DNA of 24,639 nucleotides from a virus. The notes below the pieces were generated by a model. The model did not search any database and had not been told where the DNA came from. It was given only the letters and a program-made list of their open reading frames with translations. The stretch lies in IMG/VR virus record IMGVR_UViG_3300025086_000228, positions 1-24,639 of that record; one strand, given 5' to 3'. Shown in pieces: positions 1 to 16,341 of this stretch. The position numbers and the translations under genes were made by a program. Position 1 is the first letter of the stretch. Each line of letters begins with the position of its first letter.

Positions 1-2470
1 CGTAACCAATATAAGTTCCACCTTCTGTTTGAGCGTGTTGGGCAGTTGTACCAGCATTATAACCAACCGCAACCATATTATTTGTAGTAGTTATAGAATC
101 TAAAGCATTTGCACCTATTGCGACATTTTTGCTACCAGTTGTAATCGCTTTTAATGCATCTTTACCGATTCCAGTATTGTTTGCATTAGCATTATTAGAT
201 ACACCCTTACCAGCCTCATAACCAATATAAGTATTATTGCCACCAGTATTATTTCCATAACCAGCGTTATAGCCGAAGCCAACATTTGCAGAACCACTTG
301 AATTTAATCTTAATGCATTGTAACCAACCGCGGTCATAAAAGCTTGTGTGTTTGTCAATAAACAACTTTGCCCTACCGCAGTATTATAATTACCACTAAT
401 ATTTGAAGCTAATGCTCCACCGCCTATTGCTACATTAGATGTAACTGTTGTGCCAACATTTAAGGCTTGATAACCAACCGCTACATTTGAAGAACCAGCT
501 GTAATAGATTTTCCTGAATGGTAACCTACTGCTACATTATTTGCACCTGAAGTAAGAGCTTTAAGAGATTCTCTACCTATTGCTACACTATTACTAGTTT
601 GCGTAGTTTGTAATGCTTGGTAACCGATAGCAACATTATGGTCAGCACTATCACTATTAACTAAATTCATAGTTTGATAGCCAATGGCAACATTCATATC
701 CTCTCCACCATCAGCAGATGACATTGTGCTTTGTCCTATTGCTACATTACTATTGCCAGTTGTTATAGATAATAAAGCACTTTTACCTATCGCAATATTT
801 TCTGTTCCGCTTGTAAGAGATGCTAAAGCACTAACTCCCAATCCTACATTTCTGGCTCCAGTTGTGATTGCAGTTAATGATTGATAACCAACTGCAGTAT
901 TATCAGTATGCGATTGACCACTAGCACCTTTCATTGCCTCATTTCCAATTGCAGTATTTTTAGTACCAGTTACATTATTATAACTTGCACTATAACCCAT
1001 AGCAACATTATTAGCTATTTGTCCTTCTACAGTTAGATTTCCAGCATTTTGAGAATAAAGACCTATTGCAATATTTCTTTTTCCAGCAGTATTAGTATAT
1101 AATGATTGAGTACCAATCGCAATATTTTCACTAGCAACAGTTCCACTATATGATGCACCTCTGCCTATTCCAACATTTTCAGTTCCAGTAGTTAATGAAT
1201 ATAAAGCTTCATGACCTATTACAGTATTATTTCCACCAGTTGTAACTGCAGTAAGTGCTTTATATCCTACTGCTACTGAACTACTTGCAGTAAAAGCTGA
1301 ACCATCACTTGATTTTGTTGCTCCTCCTAGTGAGGCATAACCTACTGCTACATTATTTTTAGCAGTATTGTTTGCAACTGTATCATCTCCCCCTGACATC
1401 GCTAAAGCTCCAATAGCAGTATTATTTTCTCCAGCTCCACCGCCACCAGTTGTTCCTAATTTTTGTAATGTGTATGCACCTACTCCAGTATTATAATTTA
1501 ATAAAACATTTAAGCCTGCTTGATACCCTAAAAATGTTCCATCAGTTCCAGTTGCACTGTTTTTAGCAGATTGATACCCAATAGATGTATTTCTAGCACC
1601 TGAAGTAAGAGCTTTAAGAGATTCATATCCAATAGCTACTGTACCATCTGCACCTGATGTGGTTGCTCCGTAAACGGCGTTTGAACCTATTATTACTGCT
1701 TTATCAATATCATCTGAACCAAATCCAGCTAAAGCACCTACGACAGTATTATGAGAACCAGTAAATCCACTTGTTCCATTTAATGCTAAAGTTCCAACTA
1801 AGGTATTACTAGAACCATCAGTATGTTGACCACCAGCCGAAGCACCTACAAATGTTTGATTTACAAAAGCGTTTCCTGAATCGTATTTACCACCAGCAAA
1901 ATATCCTACAAATGTTGCTCTTTGACCATTAGTCATTAATTCACCAGCACCACTACCAATAGCAACATTTCTACTAGCATTTCCATCTGTAGCAATTTTG
2001 TTAAAGGCATTTTGTCCTATTGCAACTATATGACTAGCGTTAGTTCCTTGCGACATTGCTTGATAACCAATAAAAACACAAGCATAAGGTGTAGTTAATG
2101 CTGAACCCGCTTGATATCCCAATCCTACATTATTACCACCAGTTGTAAGAGCTTTTAATGACTGAGTTCCTACGGCAGTATTGCTTGAACCCGAAGATGC
2201 ATTCCACAAAGATTGAGCTCCAACGGCTACATTATTACTGCTAGTAGCACTTCCATTTGCTCCTTTTAAAGCATAATAGCCAACCGCTACATTATTGCCA
2301 CCAGTAGTATTTTCAGATAAAGACCTCCATCCGATAGCAACATTGCCAGTTCCAGTAGTAGTGTCTAACCCCGAATCTTCACCATAAAAAGCGTTTTGCT
2401 GAGAACCATTTATTAAAGAATTACCAGCAGATTTTCCAAATATTGTATTTGATGAACCACTATCATTATT
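1..2470 (-). repeat. Degenerate tandem array coding for about 46 NVAIG-type units
   Basis: Within the fibre gene, units of roughly 48-60 bases recur. On the plus strand they appear as variants of CCxATxGCxACATT followed by ACCAGTxGT. Units differ in sequence but keep the xVAIGxxAL core; some are stretched to 22-25 residues by insertions (for example near 1310-1450). The divergence argues for an old array rather than a recent expansion. Confidence 0.85.
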
Positions 2471-4510
2471 ACTAAGACTAATGCGAGAGTTGGCATCAAG
2501 TATAAATGAGAAATTTGAAGTACTAGATTCTCGCATAAACTTAATTACACCATTATCAAATAGAATACCATTCTCAAAATTACCAGCACTTGTATTATAC
2601 ATTATTCGAGCTTGACCACCAGTTAAAGTCATATCGGGGTAAGTATTTGCACCTTCAAAGGCTACATCAGCTCCACTTGAACCTCCAAACTTGACACCTC
2701 CAGCGTTTGTAACCATTAATCTCATAGATGAATCAGTAAGATTATAAATGTAATATCCTAATGTACCTGAACCTATTTGCCAATCTTCACTAGTGCTATT
2801 CGCTCCAGTAAATTTTATAAATGTTCCATCTCCATTATTTGTGTTATGTAATTGCAGTAATTGTCCATTAGCTACATTTGAGCTAATGTGCAATGGATGA
2901 CTAGGCGAGGTTGTGCCTATGCCAACTCGCTGACTACTATCAATTCTAATTGCATCAGTAGAGCCAGTTTGAATTTGGATATAACTTGACTGTCCTAATA
3001 TTCTTGTACCTCCACTCCATACAAGATAATTATTATCAGATAATCTTATATTTCCATTTACATGAAGAGCTTCACTAGGCGAAACTGTTTTAATACCAAC
3101 TCTACTTGTGTATCCACCACCACCACCTATTTTTAATACAGGATTATTTGTGGTTTGGTCATTGAAAAAAGTGATATCTCTATCACTACTACTAGCATGA
3201 TGTGCTAAATTTGGGCCAAATTGAATCCATTTTCTTTGATATACCCTACCATTAGTATCGTGAAATCCATGTATAGCATCTGATACTCTTAAAGTACCAT
3301 GAACATCTAAATTATGGTCAATGTCTAGTGTACCGATGCCAACTTTACCATCATCAGTAATTCTTAATTTTTCAGAACCAGCAGTCCAAAAAATAAAATC
3401 ATCTGAAGAATGGTCGTATCTTATCATTCCTCTACGTTCTGCACTTGATGCACTTGTACCATCTCCAAAATGAATATTACCAGTATTACTTGTTCCAGTA
3501 ATAATACTTAAACCCGCACTACCAGCTTCTTTAATAACTAAATTAGTTGCACTTGTTCCATAATCAAGAGGTGAGGTTGTGCCTATGCCAACTGACCCAG
3601 TAAATGCTGAAACTGGAGCGACACCATCTCCCTTTAAAACTAAAATATCGCTATAAGCACCACTACCACTACTAGTATTGTATGTTTTAAATGCGTGTTT
3701 AAGAAATACAGAATAAGTAAGAGTATTTTGTGTATTTCCATGAATAACATTTTTATTAAGGTCTGCTGTTTCTCCAAATTGAAACACATCATTTACAAAA
3801 GACTTTCCACCAGCATCAAGTCTTATTTTTTCTGCACCCGAACCATTAAATAATTTTAAAGCAACATTATCACCACTATCGGTATCAATCCTAAAAGCAG
3901 TATTGCTACCATTATCTTGAACACCTTGTATGTAATCTTTATTTGAGCCAGTTGGTTGTTGAATAGTTAAAGCATAATTGCTGTTAGGCGAAATTGTGCC
4001 TATACCAATACCGCTATTAGTAATTGCCATTCTATTAGCATTATCAGTTCTAAATCTTATAAAGTCACTTGCTTCATCGCCTTGAATAGCCACTCTTCCT
4101 TTATTAGCATCTGTAGTTGCAAATGTTAAAATTTGTTGATTATCAAGTCTTATATTACCAGCAGAAATATCTAGCTTTTCTACTGGTGAGGATGTGCCAA
4201 TACCAACATTAGTATCTTGCACAACCATAGCAAGATTGTTATCTGCTGTAAATTCTAATTGAGTTTGTTTAAATTGTAAAAAAGTGTCATTGGTTATATC
4301 ACCAATTTTTCTGTTTGTAGCATTACCAGTATCAATATTACCAGTACTAAAAACAGCATTTCCATTTACAACTTGAAATGCACCTCCAGCATCGTCTGCC
4401 CATTCTACACTAGTACCATTAGCCGAAACTTTAAGCACCTTCCCCGAACTTGGGGAAGATGCTATCTTGTTGGCTTGTTGCAGGGTTTCTGCTAATTCAC
4501 GCCACGCCAT
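1..4510 (-). CDS. Giant fibre/adhesin with YadA-head-like repeats (partial, C-terminus beyond the window)
   Basis: The frame stays open from an ATG at 4510 to the left edge, at least 1503 codons. The N-terminus (MAWRELAETLQQANKIA) resembles short virion-anchoring starts of phage fibres. Residues of about 100-540 contain six VGIGTxSP-type motifs, common in phage tail fibres. From about residue 680 the protein is a long run of units of mostly 16-20 residues with the pattern NVAIGYxAL...TTGxN, about 46 of them, which is the repeat style of YadA/Hep_Hag trimeric adhesin heads. I infer a trimeric beta-roll fibre that binds the host surface. The end is missing, so a C-terminal chaperone such as peptidase S74 cannot be checked. 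It starts 3 bases after the stop of the gene at 4514-4708, with only a weak GTGAG-like ribosome site, so translation is probably coupled. Function is inferred from repeat chemistry; receptor unknown. Confidence 0.85.
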   Translation of the reverse strand, partial: MAWRELAETLQQANKIASSPSSGKVLKVSANGTSVEWADDAGGAFQVVNGNAVFSTGNIDTGNATNRKIGDITNDTFLQFKQTQLEFTADNNLAMVVQDTNVGIGTSSPVEKLDISAGNIRLDNQQILTFATTDANKGRVAIQGDEASDFIRFRTDNANRMAITNSGIGIGTISPNSNYALTIQQPTGSNKDYIQGVQDNGSNTAFRIDTDSGDNVALKLFNGSGAEKIRLDAGGKSFVNDVFQFGETADLNKNVIHGNTQNTLTYSVFLKHAFKTYNTSSGSGAYSDILVLKGDGVAPVSAFTGSVGIGTTSPLDYGTSATNLVIKEAGSAGLSIITGTSNTGNIHFGDGTSASSAERRGMIRYDHSSDDFIFWTAGSEKLRITDDGKVGIGTLDIDHNLDVHGTLRVSDAIHGFHDTNGRVYQRKWIQFGPNLAHHASSSDRDITFFNDQTTNNPVLKIGGGGGYTSRVGIKTVSPSEALHVNGNIRLSDNNYLVWSGGTRILGQSSYIQIQTGSTDAIRIDSSQRVGIGTTSPSHPLHISSNVANGQLLQLHNTNNGDGTFIKFTGANSTSEDWQIGSGTLGYYIYNLTDSSMRLMVTNAGGVKFGGSSGADVAFEGANTYPDMTLTGGQARIMYNTSAGNFENGILFDNGVIKFMRESSTSNFSFILDANSRISLSNNDSGSSNTIFGKSAGNSLINGSQQNAFYGEDSGLDTTTGTGNVAIGWRSLSENTTGGNNVAVGYYALKGANGSATSSNNVAVGAQSLWNASSGSSNTAVGTQSLKALTTGGNNVGLGYQAGSALTTPYACVFIGYQAMSQGTNASHIVAIGQNAFNKIATDGNASRNVAIGSGAGELMTNGQRATFVGYFAGGKYDSGNAFVNQTFVGASAGGQHTDGSSNTLVGTLALNGTSGFTGSHNTVVGALAGFGSDDIDKAVIIGSNAVYGATTSGADGTVAIGYESLKALTSGARNTSIGYQSAKNSATGTDGTFLGYQAGLNVLLNYNTGVGAYTLQKLGTTGGGGAGENNTAIGALAMSGGDDTVANNTAKNNVAVGYASLGGATKSSDGSAFTASSSVAVGYKALTAVTTGGNNTVIGHEALYSLTTGTENVGIGRGASYSGTVASENIAIGTQSLYTNTAGKRNIAIGLYSQNAGNLTVEGQIANNVAMGYSASYNNVTGTKNTAIGNEAMKGASGQSHTDNTAVGYQSLTAITTGARNVGLGVSALASLTSGTENIAIGKSALLSITTGNSNVAIGQSTMSSADGGEDMNVAIGYQTMNLVNSDSADHNVAIGYQALQTTQTSNSVAIGRESLKALTSGANNVAVGYHSGKSITAGSSNVAVGYQALNVGTTVTSNVAIGGGALASNISGNYNTAVGQSCLLTNTQAFMTAVGYNALRLNSSGSANVGFGYNAGYGNNTGGNNTYIGYEAGKGVSNNANANNTGIGKDALKAITTGSKNVAIGANALDSITTTNNMVAVGYNAGTTAQHAQTEGGTYIGY

Positions 4511-11139: not shown

Positions 11140-12621
11140 TTATGCGATTAACCAGTCTTTTGCTCTATTAATAACTGATTTCTTTAACGCATGAGCCTCG
11201 ACCACTTCGTGGTGAGGCGAATACGAATTTTTATTTGCGTAATATAAGCCGTCTAATAAATCATCGTGTTTTCCACGAGGGAACAAAGACAGCTCGTCTT
11301 TTAAATCTTGCATCGTATCTAATATGTGTACTTTTCCTCTGGAAAATATCGGTTGTAAGCTTTCCAGTCGTCTAGACTTACTGTTTCTTGGATTCTCTCG
11401 AATATTAAGCCCAGGAATAAATATGTTTTCTTCCTCACTGCGTTTAATAACATACTCTCGTAACATTTCTTGATAGCCAACACTTTCTATGCGAGTACGC
11501 TCTGAGCGATATTTTTTATAATTTTTAACAATTGCCTCTGCTAAGTTTAAAGGAGTAGCCCTTTCTCTGTAATAAGGCAAAGCATAACGATTGCCGTCTT
11601 TATCAACTGCTATGTTAAAGATTACAGAGTAATCAGCAGTTTGTTTCGTACTAGACGCAGGGTCTACTCCTGTAAAGATATTAACAGGCACTTCTCGTTT
11701 TTGTGGGGAAACAATATCTAAAACAGCGTTTCCCTCTGCATCATGCCTTATTTCTCCTTGGTAGTAATTTAAATCCTCTAATTTAAACAACTGGTCTTCG
11801 TCACCTACTATCTCACACATATACTCTCTATAAAAGACAGATAACCTGTTAATAGAGTCTAATTCATCTTTTTTTTCTTTTAATTTTTTTATAGACCACC
11901 AATCTTCCCATAAAGCATACCCTTTATCAAAATCAGGCTTATAAGTCAAGTTAAGCCATCCTTTCATATCTTTTAGCGTTTCTACTAAACACCGCTGGTG
12001 TTGCGGAGTGCCAACTATGATAATACGCCCTTTGCGAGGGTCAAGTGAGGGTACTGCTGATTGTAGCAACCAACGTAAGTTGGATTCCATTGCTTCTGCT
12101 GTTTTAGTGTTATTTTCATCTTCAGGGTCATCAACGATAATAAGACTAGGGCGCTGGTTCCCGATTTTTATTCCACGTAACTGTTGGCCTGTTCCCTTAC
12201 ATATTATCATTGAACCATCTTTTAACTCTATCTCAGCTTTAGCCCAGCTTTTAGCAGAATGTTGGCCCCAATAGCCAAACATTTCACGACACTGGTCGCT
12301 ATAATCAAGCGTATCTTTTATCAAGCCAAGCAATTTAACTGCATGGTCTTGCGTCCTAGATACAAGAACTATTAATTTTTTACCTTCTCCAAAAAATAAA
12401 TGATGCATAGGAAGAATACCGCCAACAATAGAGCTTTTAGCGTGTCCACGAGGAGCAACGATATTTATCTGCTTATTATCAAGATTCATTACATGTCCAG
12501 CTAAGTCATAATGAAAATCAGGCGACTTTGCAGAAAACATATTGGGAATACAAACTTTCCCAAACATCATCATGTCGTTTTTAAGCCGAAGCAGTATTTC
12601 TTTCTTTTTGCTTTCTTCCAT
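11140..12621 (-). CDS. terL: Terminase large subunit (packaging ATPase and nuclease)
   Basis: The ATG at 12621 overlaps the upstream stop as TGATG; the TTG one codon earlier is less likely. The 493-residue product has a Walker A loop APRGHAKS (residues 56-63), a Walker B strand LIIVDDPEDEN (160-170), and a motif III segment IVGTPQHQ (202-209). The C-terminal RNase H-like nuclease shows D320 (FTGVDPAS), E379 (IESVGYQ) and the acidic cluster HDDLLDG (452-458). All catalytic positions appear intact. It cuts concatemeric DNA and pumps it into the head through the portal. The overlapping 64-aa gene is upstream and the portal gene is downstream. Confidence 0.93.
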   Translation of the reverse strand: MEESKKKEILLRLKNDMMMFGKVCIPNMFSAKSPDFHYDLAGHVMNLDNKQINIVAPRGHAKSSIVGGILPMHHLFFGEGKKLIVLVSRTQDHAVKLLGLIKDTLDYSDQCREMFGYWGQHSAKSWAKAEIELKDGSMIICKGTGQQLRGIKIGNQRPSLIIVDDPEDENNTKTAEAMESNLRWLLQSAVPSLDPRKGRIIIVGTPQHQRCLVETLKDMKGWLNLTYKPDFDKGYALWEDWWSIKKLKEKKDELDSINRLSVFYREYMCEIVGDEDQLFKLEDLNYYQGEIRHDAEGNAVLDIVSPQKREVPVNIFTGVDPASSTKQTADYSVIFNIAVDKDGNRYALPYYRERATPLNLAEAIVKNYKKYRSERTRIESVGYQEMLREYVIKRSEEENIFIPGLNIRENPRNSKSRRLESLQPIFSRGKVHILDTMQDLKDELSLFPRGKHDDLLDGLYYANKNSYSPHHEVVEAHALKKSVINRAKDWLIA

Positions 12622-14119: not shown

Positions 14120-14381
14120 ACTGGAAAATACCTAATGGCACTATGGAAACACTACGTAGGAAAATTTTGAAAAAATTATGTTAGAGTGGGTGAGTGTAAT
14201 ATATACCATTACTACCCCCCAGCCTGAAGGTGCATGGGGTGTACTTTTTCGTTGAGAATTATTGCCATTCATGTTGTGTCTCAACAGAAGTTGTACACCA
14301 GCCTGCACTTCAGCTGGCCCCTGTCTCTTTTTAGCTAGCAGTTATTGTTAGTGTTTTAATTAACTAATTATGAGGTGTATT
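14120..14381. promoter_or_regulatory. Divergent intergenic region between the leftward and rightward arms
   Basis: These 262 bases separate diverging genes, so promoters in both directions are expected. A TTGAAA near 14167 and TAATAT near 14196 are promoter-like but spaced too far apart (24 bases), so no clear consensus pair is seen. A run of C (14215-14220) and a large imperfect inverted repeat fill the middle. I see no supportable gene in it. Confidence 0.5.
14219..14317. repeat. Large imperfect inverted repeat with a nested hairpin
   Basis: The left arm (14219-14244, beginning CCAGCCTGAA and ending GGTGTAC) pairs with the right arm (14293-14317, beginning GTACACC and ending TTCAGCTGG). 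The stem has blocks of 7, 5, 5 and 4 bp separated by small bulges. Inside it, GTTGAGA (14251-14257) pairs with TCTCAAC (14279-14285). The total span is 99 bases. It could be a structured leader RNA of the gene at 14382, an origin-type cruciform or a protein binding site. Confidence 0.6.
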
Positions 14382-14708
14382 ATGACAATTACTTTTGTAA
14401 ATGATAAAGGTACTGAGCTTGGACGTGTTAATTCTTTATCCGATATGGATATTGTTAGAGCGAATGGTAAGATATGGGCTGATAAGTGTTCAGCTATCTT
14501 CGTGTCTTGTTCTGATAAGCCTGATGTGATTCAAAGAGCTAAGGCCAAGTTAATGGCTTATGCCAAGTCTCAGAAGTTTGAGCAAACTGAGCCTAATGAT
14601 GCTAACTCTCAATTCGTTGGGACAAAGTCATTCGTTATGAATCGTGTTGAGCTTAAGGCTAAAGATGATAATACTGATGAGCTTGATGATATCATATTGG
14701 GTGCTTAG
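14382..14708 (+). CDS. Unknown early protein, 108 aa
   Basis: I choose the ATG at 14382 (MTITFVNDKGTELGRVNSLS) because GAGGTG lies just before it; the ATG at 14370 would overlap that ribosome site. The product is alpha/beta with 'DMDIVRANGKIWADKCSAIF' in the middle and an acidic C-terminal tail (KAKDDNTDELDDIILGA). It is followed at once by a good terminator, so it probably forms its own transcription unit, abundantly expressed judging by the strong ribosome site. GC content is higher than in the genes after 15737. No family is recognised. Confidence 0.75.
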   Translation: MTITFVNDKGTELGRVNSLSDMDIVRANGKIWADKCSAIFVSCSDKPDVIQRAKAKLMAYAKSQKFEQTEPNDANSQFVGTKSFVMNRVELKAKDDNTDELDDIILGA

Positions 14709-14715
14709 TTGATGA

Positions 14716-14740
14716 GGGTTTGCGTGTGCAGACCCTTTTC
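14716..14740 (+). terminator. Rho-independent terminator
   Basis: GGGTTTGC and GCAGACCC form an 8-bp stem (one G-T pair) around the tetraloop GTGT, followed by TTTTC. It ends the transcription unit of the gene at 14382. Confidence 0.85.
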
Positions 14741-14791
14741 AAATCCGTGCATAAAAACCAATGCTTATTATAAAAAACGAAAGGATTACCT

Positions 14792-14929
14792 ATGTCATTG
14801 CTAATGAATACAGCAAGATATTGGTTGTTTGAGTCTGCTTTTGGTTCAATTGTAGAAGTTAGTAGAGATGAATATCCTACGTACATATCTGCAATTGCTG
14901 AAGCTAGGCAACAACTGATTAACGGTTGA
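14792..14929 (+). CDS. Small unknown protein, 45 aa
   Basis: A good ribosome site (AAGGATTACC just before the ATG) precedes MSLLMNTARYWLFESAFGS; the product ends in an Ala/Gln-rich helix. It lies between a terminator and the long non-coding stretch, so it may be read from a promoter at about 14741-14780, where TATTATAAA is a possible -10 region. No family is recognised. Confidence 0.55.
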   Translation: MSLLMNTARYWLFESAFGSIVEVSRDEYPTYISAIAEARQQLING

Positions 14930-15736
14930 TTTAATTGAATAAGATTCGGGGTGTAACGAGCCTGGCAACAGAAATGCGTATGATTTATTTATTTATGAAG
15001 ATGATAAAAACGAAGACATTATTGTATCTTGTCGATTGTATCAAAAAGTGGAGTACGAAATTAATATATACCACATTTAAAATTAATCGTATGTAGTAAT
15101 GAACAATCGACAAAGTATTTATTACTGAATTGCACTTGATATGTGTAACCATTTTAATATAGTAGAGTTACTAAGACTATTCTTTAGTATCTTCCTAGTT
15201 ATGCTATTACCACTAATATATTGGTATGCATAAAAACGATAACAGTTGTAGTAACTGTAGTATGTGTAACAGGGTCTCCTAAAGAGATGTGGTTCATACA
15301 AGCAATGTTAAGCTGTCGTTAGGTCGTATAATATATATTCTCTATTACCGAAGAAGCTGAAGAGCGATGAATCGGGCAGTATTAAAGCCTACGGGACTGA
15401 TTAGCTATCAGGTGTGTTAGGTGCTGTAAGCAATGTAAACGCTGTACTAAAGAGCGCATTGTTATATTAAAACCGTAACGGGTATATCTAACCAACGGGG
15501 ACAGGTGCAATTCAAATATTTAAGTTTAGCTAAAAAATAAAGGCTGAATATAAAACATGATGCCGAAACGTGGTCTGCCAGTCAAATATTCCTAGGATAT
15601 CTGAACTCGCCACTACAAAGTAAGGTCGTTGTTTTGTATTACCTCTGCTTTTGACTTTCAAGTACTCGAGTGACTGGGTAAAAGTTATCGTTAAAACAGC
15701 CTTTATTTAATAATAGAAAAATAAAAGGAGAATAAA
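14930..15736 (+). ncRNA. Candidate large structured RNA in a gene-free stretch of about 800 bases
   Basis: No convincing gene with start and ribosome site exists here on either strand, although the phage is otherwise packed. GC content is not lower than in the neighbouring genes. Perfect complementary pairs include TTGTCGATTGT (15029-15039) with ACAATCGACAA (15103-15113), and AAATAAAGGCTG (15535-15546) with CAGCCTTTATTT (15697-15708). Local hairpins include TACTAA/TTAGTA (15169-15189), ATGC..TACCA/TGGTA.GCAT (15201-15231), ACAGTT/AACTGT (15242-15258), CTGAT/ATCAG (15397-15411) and CAATG..CGCT/AGCG CATTG (15431-15461). The strand is inferred from the flanking genes. Phages do carry ornate RNAs of this size (GOLLD, ROOL), but I recognise no specific motif of those classes. 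Ends are approximate. Confidence 0.5.
15535..15708 (+). repeat. Perfect 12-bp inverted repeat closing a 150-base structured segment
   Basis: AAATAAAGGCTG and CAGCCTTTATTT are exact complements. Inside, CCAGTCAAA (15579-15587) can pair either with TTTGACT (15650-15656) or, in part, with GACTGG (15672-15677), which are mutually exclusive pairings. A palindrome around CCTAGG (15591-15596) also lies inside. The right arm ends 28 bases before the ATG of the next gene, so the element is either the 3' domain of a long RNA or a structured leader. Confidence 0.6.
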
Positions 15737-16126
15737 ATGGGAAGATATTATTCAGGAGATATTGAGGGTAAATTCTGGTTTGCTGTGCAAAGTAGTACTA
15801 GTCCAGAAAGATTTGGTGCAGTAGAAAACCAAAGCCATATTAATTATGAAATACCAAAAGATGATTTTATTTATGACCAATTAATAAAAATAGAAGATGA
15901 TATGGGTGATTATTTAGAAGTTTATGAAGACTTTTTTAATCAAGATAGGGGTTATAATGATGAAGAACTATCTGATTATGCAAAAGTCAGAGGTTTAAGT
16001 GGAAATTTAGATGTAATAAAAGAAATGCTTACTGATTATGCTGATTGGTTACTAGGTATGCAGATACTTGATTTCTTTGATGACAATCCATCTGAAAGTT
16101 ATTTACATATGGAAGCTGAAATATAA
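15737..16126 (+). CDS. Conserved-looking phage protein, 129 aa, unknown function
   Basis: The product starts MGRYYSGDIEGKFWFAVQSS, an N-terminus I recognise from uncharacterised phage proteins but cannot name. It is very acidic and rich in Asp, Glu and Tyr, with 'YDQLIKIEDDMGDYLEVYED' in the middle and a helical C-terminus (LDVIKEMLTDYADWLLGMQI). AAAAGGAGAATAAA before the ATG is a strong ribosome site. Acidity and the early position would suit a host-takeover or DNA-mimic role, which is speculation. It follows the structured region directly. Confidence 0.75.
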   Translation: MGRYYSGDIEGKFWFAVQSSTSPERFGAVENQSHINYEIPKDDFIYDQLIKIEDDMGDYLEVYEDFFNQDRGYNDEELSDYAKVRGLSGNLDVIKEMLTDYADWLLGMQILDFFDDNPSESYLHMEAEI

Positions 16127-16141
16127 TTTAAACAAAAAGGT

Positions 16142-16176
16142 CATTGCTGACACACACCCACAAAAACACAGCAATG
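16142..16176 (+). other. Hairpin after the 15737 gene
   Basis: CATTGCTG and CAGCAATG are perfect 8-bp complements around a 19-base A/C-rich loop. No T-run follows, so it is not a standard terminator. It may be an mRNA end-protecting or processing hairpin. Confidence 0.5.
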
Positions 16177-16213
16177 TCCAACTTTACATTAAACTACATG
16201 TTATGCGGTAGTA

Positions 16214-16306
16214 TTGCCTAATAAAGCATAAGTAGGGGTTTCTTTTAAACTAATGACTCATAATTAGTTCCTTTCATATATCCTCTTTTGACTATTTATT
16301 AGGCAA
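16214..16306 (+). repeat. Perfect 12-bp inverted repeat with inner hairpin, upstream of the 16338 gene
   Basis: TTGCCTAATAAA (16214-16225) is the exact complement of TTTATTAGGCAA (16295-16306). Inside, AACTAAT (16248-16254) pairs with ATTAGTT (16263-16269) around an 8-base loop. The layout (long-range closing helix, inner hairpin, ribosome site shortly after) mirrors 15535-15708 and 16815-16913. The rest of the 16127-16332 gap holds no gene that I can support. Confidence 0.6.
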
Positions 16307-16332
16307 ATCTTTAATTAACACAGGAGAATAAA

Positions 16333-16341
16333 ATGCCATGA
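16333..16341 (+). other. Two-codon minigene (Met-Pro-stop) overlapping the next start
   Basis: AGGAGAATAAA precedes ATG CCA TGA, exactly the leader used by the gene at 15737. The TGA overlaps the ATG of the 55-aa gene at 16338. Ribosomes should use the well-placed first ATG, stop after two codons and restart on the overlapping ATG, or stall there. Confidence 0.5.

Follow-up and report, generated by a model that had tools for sequence, protein, structure and literature searches.

The locus and its non-coding gap

The window, meaning the whole stretch of DNA that was analyzed, is a virus record of 24.6 kb (24,639 nucleotides, IMGVR_UViG_3300025086_000228). The genes that run leftward include those for a large terminase and a P22-type portal, and among those that run rightward are genes for a Sak-type annealing protein and a primase-helicase; the kind of relatives found points to a marine phage. 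Close to where the rightward block begins lies a stretch at 14930–15736 which the sequence-only reading had described as gene-free and without a drop in GC content. Both descriptions held: with a plausible gene set, no other non-coding gap in the window is as long as these 807 bases (those of 250, 211 and 120 come next), the longest ORF within them has at most 59 codons, and G+C is 0.30–0.38 vs 0.29–0.39 in the neighbors. Rfam likewise recognized no family in the stretch at gathering and permissive thresholds, where chance matches only were returned.

Near relatives were found via the terminase, which is identical to that of the window at 98% in L084, 96% in L160, 95% in L086 and 94% in L087. 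Record labels correspond as G001 = L166, G003 = L086, G004 = L087 and G005 = L160. The gap is preceded by a gene for a 45-aa protein (14792–14929, + strand; 59–68% identity in G003, G004 and G005) and followed in this phage by a gene for a 129-aa protein (15737–16126, + strand; PHROG 33624, unknown function). The latter protein has 80 relatives (37–48% identity), none with the RNA described below upstream, while the protein encoded at 14370–14708 gave a single distant match and zero among named phages. Promoter and terminator scans yielded sites at or below shuffle level, fewer than in shuffles for the promoter scan, and the sole promoter-like match near the largest RNA module (15136–15163) falls inside it.

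Three other places in the window were recorded on the side. The non-coding bases 14709–14791, 5' of the 45-aa gene, contain a GGGTTTGC/GCAGACCC hairpin plus AATCCGTGCATAAAAA...AATGC, and similar sequence is seen by eye in L087, L160, L102 and L103, which makes them a further candidate RNA element. The non-coding gap ranked third by size (16127–16337) contains GGTCATTGCTG/CAGCAATGTCC. On the minus strand, 2–4510 encodes a very long tail-fibre-like protein with dozens of GNNNxAxGYxSL-type repeats, and over a piece of 220 bases this gene is 88.6% identical to DNA of G001, which shares the largest module too but is otherwise unrelated.

Structured modules of the gap

Comparison of the stretch with the near relatives showed that it falls into separately conserved pieces. 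The largest, module B (15127–15513, + strand), is 387 nt long and almost certainly a new structured RNA, judged by its pattern of substitutions. Six members (window, L086, L087, L160, L166 and L172) were aligned by MAFFT, and pairing was counted on this alignment for a structure curated by hand, which comprises 98 pairs in 17 helices and has two pseudoknots among them. Proposed pairs were formed in 99.1% of the cells vs 89.3% in shuffles, and 32 pairs were changed on both sides in at least one member vs 16.7 in shuffles (reached by 0 of 500), counts which come from six interrelated sequences with few independent events and from a structure drawn on the same alignment. When partners were slid by 1–3 columns, pairing fell to 33–46%. 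Cells with G.U and A.C stood at 38:0, which assigns the RNA of module B to the + strand. The sequence-only reading had proposed to judge its RNA by covariation and by intact genes in homologues: the homologues of module B covary, and no open frame is conserved in any of them (5–17 stops per frame in all six members).

Module B is closed by the 11-bp stem P1 (15127–15137 / 15503–15513). Helices P1, P2, P3, P7a, P9b and the pseudoknot PKA each have at least three pairs changed on both sides, and the pseudoknot PKB has two. PKA joins 15182–15189 to 15445–15452 on the + strand, the latter in the P9 loop, within hairpin P9b (15440–15443 / 15453–15456), with 4 of its 8 pairs changed on both sides. 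PKB joins 15215–15221, in the loop of hairpin P4, to 15333–15339 on the same strand, with 2 of 7 pairs changed on both sides and 100% of the cells paired. Both pseudoknots are supported by pairing-preserving changes, which span about 120 and 260 nt. The 5' strand of PKA can also pair locally with 15172–15178 (5–7 bp in 6/6 members, not unusual vs shuffles in every member), and the two pairings are mutually exclusive. Since a local partner and the P9 loop are both available to 15182–15189 in each of the six members, a conformational switch is suggested, or one of the pairings may be a folding intermediate.

Module C (15535–15708, + strand) is a second new structured RNA with homologues in G003, G004, G005 and, partially because of a contig end, L084. 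Its outer stem is the 12-bp complement AAATAAAGGCTG/CAGCCTTTATTT, and an inner helix is formed by 15570–15574 / 15612–15616 (+ strand). Read by hand, a helix of C is GTGGT/ACTAC in the window, GTTGT/ACGAC in G004, AGCGT/ACGCT in G005 and GAGGT/ACTTC in G003. It is one of two helices that covary in the sequences compared, their pairing being kept as the sequence changes. The other is the stem of a hairpin (15586–15600, + strand), which varies yet stays paired under a 7-nt loop, U-CCUAGG, that is identical in 5/5 sequences. Kissing-loop dimers are usually marked by a loop hexamer that is palindromic and invariant, and by analogy this hairpin is a possible kissing-dimer site through which module C probably dimerizes. 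Module G (15029–15113, + strand) is a hairpin closed by the 11-bp complement TTGTCGATTGT/ACAATCGACAA; it was found in the window only and no relative was found.

These two complements, 11 bp at 15029/15103 and 12 bp at 15535/15697, are the exact long-range pairs that the sequence-only reading had reported and had called unexpected by chance. Both exist, but they are less improbable than stated: of 2000 dinucleotide shuffles, 118 had one or more 11-mer inverted repeats within 200 bases, 27 had a 12-mer, and 15 had 11-mer inverted repeats as numerous as observed. One belongs to module G and the other to module C, and neither lies in module B. The direct repeats reported with them are also present (TATGTGTAAC at 15140/15261; AAGCAATGT at 15300/15428) and were judged incidental; for TATGTGTAAC this is because the copy at 15261 lies in helix P7a, which changes sequence between relatives. 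For the whole stretch, folding of the single sequence gave z scores of −2.7 (+ strand, 20 shuffles) and −0.7 (− strand); for module B and module C the scores of the + strand were −1.95 and −3.2. The single-sequence fold is only moderately better than shuffled, and the real support for structure is comparative.

Module A (14935–14983, + strand) lies 3' of the 45-aa gene and consists of the lead TTGAATAAGAT and an H-type pseudoknot, TCGGGG...CCTGGCAACAGAA...GCGT, whose stem 2 is weak in the window (about 3 bp). It is conserved in L084, L086, L087 and L160, and the motif TCGGAG-N-TTGGCAACAGAA occurs in at least 120 viral stretches. The matches listed include 98 distinct instances, 38 with an alanine-rich tag-like end upstream and 44 after other genes with the lead YTGANTAAGAY. 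Among these listed matches, stem 1 has 4–5 bp in 85 of 98 and the second stem 5–9 bp in 77 of 98, mostly right after GGCAACAGAA, which gives an H-type pseudoknot. When five loci of the tag class were submitted to Rfam, permuted tmRNAs were called above the cut-off; the window belongs to the free-standing class, and Rfam gave nothing above the cut-off at its motif. Module A is probably a 3' mRNA-end element with a pseudoknot common to permuted tmRNA, which suggests a second role of the tmRNA pseudoknot at mRNA 3' ends in many phages.

Several arrangements of module A were observed elsewhere. In L177, L216, L283, L260, L197, L236 and about 38 other loci (among the matches listed), it stands without a tag frame directly behind ordinary phage genes, after YTGANTAAGAY, in some cases 3 nt past the stop codon of a capsid-like gene of 461–487 aa, and tag-less A is possibly a general phage 3' mRNA-end element. 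On the minus strand of L180 (3033, reverse-strand coordinates) it is followed by a small tRNA-like acceptor stem and T arm without an anticodon arm, an arrangement that recalls the tRNA-like 3' ends in some plant virus RNAs. L224 carries three copies about 350 bases apart (at 11428, 11776 and 12129), each after a small gene and then followed by a terminator-like hairpin.

Exchange of modules between phages

Module B has crossed between otherwise unrelated phages as a sharply bounded unit. The window's B is most similar to that of G001 (87.5% identity over about 400 bases), a phage whose terminase and portal are 31% and 27% identical to those of the window and which otherwise has only pieces of the tail-fibre region in common at the DNA level, and B is absent from L084 despite the 98%-identical terminase. 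DNA matches to five other phages start at 15122–15129 and end at 15511–15524, on or just outside stem P1. The aligned ends are 15122–15524 (G001), 15128–15523 (G002), 15127–15513 (G004) and 15129–15511 (G005), and in G003 an insertion interrupts the match and its start is merged with flanking DNA. Because the alignments end at the closing stem and L084 lacks the module, B is read as a discrete unit moving between phages. Taken computationally from the sequences, module B is non-coding, conserved in structure on the + strand and horizontally mobile as a unit, with differing genes downstream.

The other modules vary in company and order. L084 has module A, then about 90 bases, then module C, without B; in G005, C lies upstream of B; in G003 and G004, reading frames lie between B and C, including, in G003, a protein gene; in G001 and G002, B stands without the others; and four phages have all three of A, B and C. 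The stretch is therefore a mosaic, as A and C occur without B in L084, C precedes B in G005 and frames intervene in G003 and G004. As a side observation, a nearly identical sequence of about 100 bases that is probably structured (module D; L087:7156–7255 and L160:6989–7094, minus strand) stands directly before a tRNA-like sequence and B.

The search for further members covered several collections. The loci that three independent B sequence patterns picked out across the viral collection overlapped, and no divergent members were among them; L164, L165 and L169 from the first pattern were chance coding-like matches and the seven extra loci of the third were all chance. The scan of the genome collection gave one match, a chance one in a coding-like stretch, and when the stretch and the B of L172 were compared by BLASTN with 50,697 phage records, there were chance matches of 26–44 bases or none; profile HMMs were also used in searching. 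In the literature searched, the coverage of which is incomplete, neither B nor C nor the free-standing motif of A was found described. As far as the tools used show, B and C are new structured RNAs and apparently undescribed.

The large phage RNA that the sequence-only reading had proposed was upheld in being non-coding, structured, absent from Rfam and covarying in homologues, but it is not one RNA of 800 nt: relatives show at least three conserved modules, the largest of 387 nt, which are separately gained, lost and reordered. A single RNA of about 800 nt would suit the placement of the modules on one strand within about 780 bases and their joint presence in four phages, yet their varying arrangement makes it very improbable: C precedes B in G005, a protein gene separates the two in G003 and reading frames do so in G004, and there are phages with A and C without B or with B only. 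Decay of a protein gene, or chance sequence, can draw on single-sequence folding and inverted repeats that alone are only moderately unusual; the strong comparative structure, the zero conserved frames and the boundaries at the closing stem leave it hardly any probability.

Among the six phages at least five different genes lie 3' of B, which argues against control in cis, so B probably acts in trans. B as a large riboswitch-like leader of the downstream gene, with the alternative pairings of 15182–15189 as its switch, would agree with a gene with a ribosome-binding site 3' of B in several relatives (close in G004 and G005) and with the alternative pairing in 6/6 members. It is unlikely, however, as B has no stable link to one gene or pathway, module C lies between B and the gene in the window, and the alignment halts at B's own closing stem with no shared expression platform beyond. 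Sharp boundaries, presence or absence in close relatives and transfer between unrelated phages could mark a selfish RNA-level element, intron-like or a decayed intron, of no benefit to the phage. This is less probable still: there is no Rfam intron or ribozyme match and no encoded protein, B is intergenic in every genome seen with no exon to interrupt, the flanks inspected have no common target sequence, and the compensated changes in B indicate selection on structure.

We therefore prefer to read the stretch as an RNA island, a row of separate folded modules exchanged between phages, with B as a mobile, trans-acting RNA gene whose function is left open, a reading to which we give a probability of about three in four. 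Phages would swap RNA modules in the way that protein genes are swapped, here at the start of a marine phage's rightward gene block. B, an RNA gene complete in itself (about 387 nt) whose limits are set by its 11-bp stem and which is held by two long-range pseudoknots, would be co-transcribed with the rightward genes. Under the island reading it would most likely serve as an accessory structural RNA of infection, working like GOLLD or ROOL, possibly as a scaffold or oligomer and possibly acting on translation. An action on translation is considered because a CAU tRNA-like sequence stands directly 5' of B in two relatives (28.3 bits in G004 and 24.7 bits in G005, Rfam cut-off 29; not called by ARAGORN), and such a link is a tentative suggestion; no such sequence was found in the window, G003 or G001, and that of G002 is not near B. 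It is conceivable, though we hold it doubtful, that B founds a family of phage RNAs that are mobile, act in trans and combine two pseudoknots with a built-in switch. In that case the exchangeable islands in which it travels would also carry a dimerizing C, tRNA-like sequences and, recruited as a signal for mRNA 3' ends, a pseudoknot of the tmRNA type. With its clear ends and covariation-backed secondary structure, B is an RNA class small enough for SHAPE and cryo-EM, and the window and L084 are a natural presence/absence pair for asking what it does.

Comparison with known structured RNAs

Module A has the motif and topology of the 3'-terminal H-type pseudoknot of tmRNA, with the weak stem 2 in the window. 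In the permuted (two-piece) tmRNAs (RF01849 and RF04321) the motif UCGGAG ... YUUGGCAACAGAA and a pseudoknot end the coding part, as in A. Two-piece tmRNAs are known from marine phages (PMC9004378). Module A of the window differs in having neither a tag frame nor a tRNA-like domain: a conserved 45-aa gene lies upstream, ARAGORN finds none, and the scores, 7.9 to 16.4 bits, stay far below the cut-off of 50. A tmRNA reading of 14764–14982 was rejected for its weak score and the conserved protein gene in its way.

Retroviral dimerization-initiation hairpins are kissing loops, and module C resembles them in its palindromic loop, CCUAGG on a variable paired stem, while sequence and context are unrelated.

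To our knowledge, phages have yielded few large structured RNAs, and no function is established for the ornate GOLLD and ROOL. The GOLLD model (RF02032, gathering score 150 bits) was run on the window's record and on five records that bear B; at E<=10 it matched in 0 places, with 3–9 candidates scored per record, and B is not a GOLLD member. The ROOL model (RF03087) gave no match in a search in which no positive control matched either, and cmscan with all of Rfam gave no ROOL match. Both GOLLD and ROOL occur in phages near tRNAs, as large RNAs with pseudoknots; ROOL is known from phages and prophages, near tRNA islands, and in a marine sample GOLLD env-38 follows a Met-tRNA (PMC12286853). B is similar to both as a large pseudoknotted phage RNA. 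Compared with ROOL, B is shorter and has no match to the model, in the search without a positive control; GOLLD is often >800 nt against about 390 nt for B. A homo-oligomeric RNA cage is a hallmark of GOLLD. The position of env-38 after Met-tRNA is like that of B after the CAU tRNA-like sequence in G004 and G005. By this analogy B may work like GOLLD or ROOL, and a scaffold or oligomer of their kind is one possible, if not the probable, form of its action.
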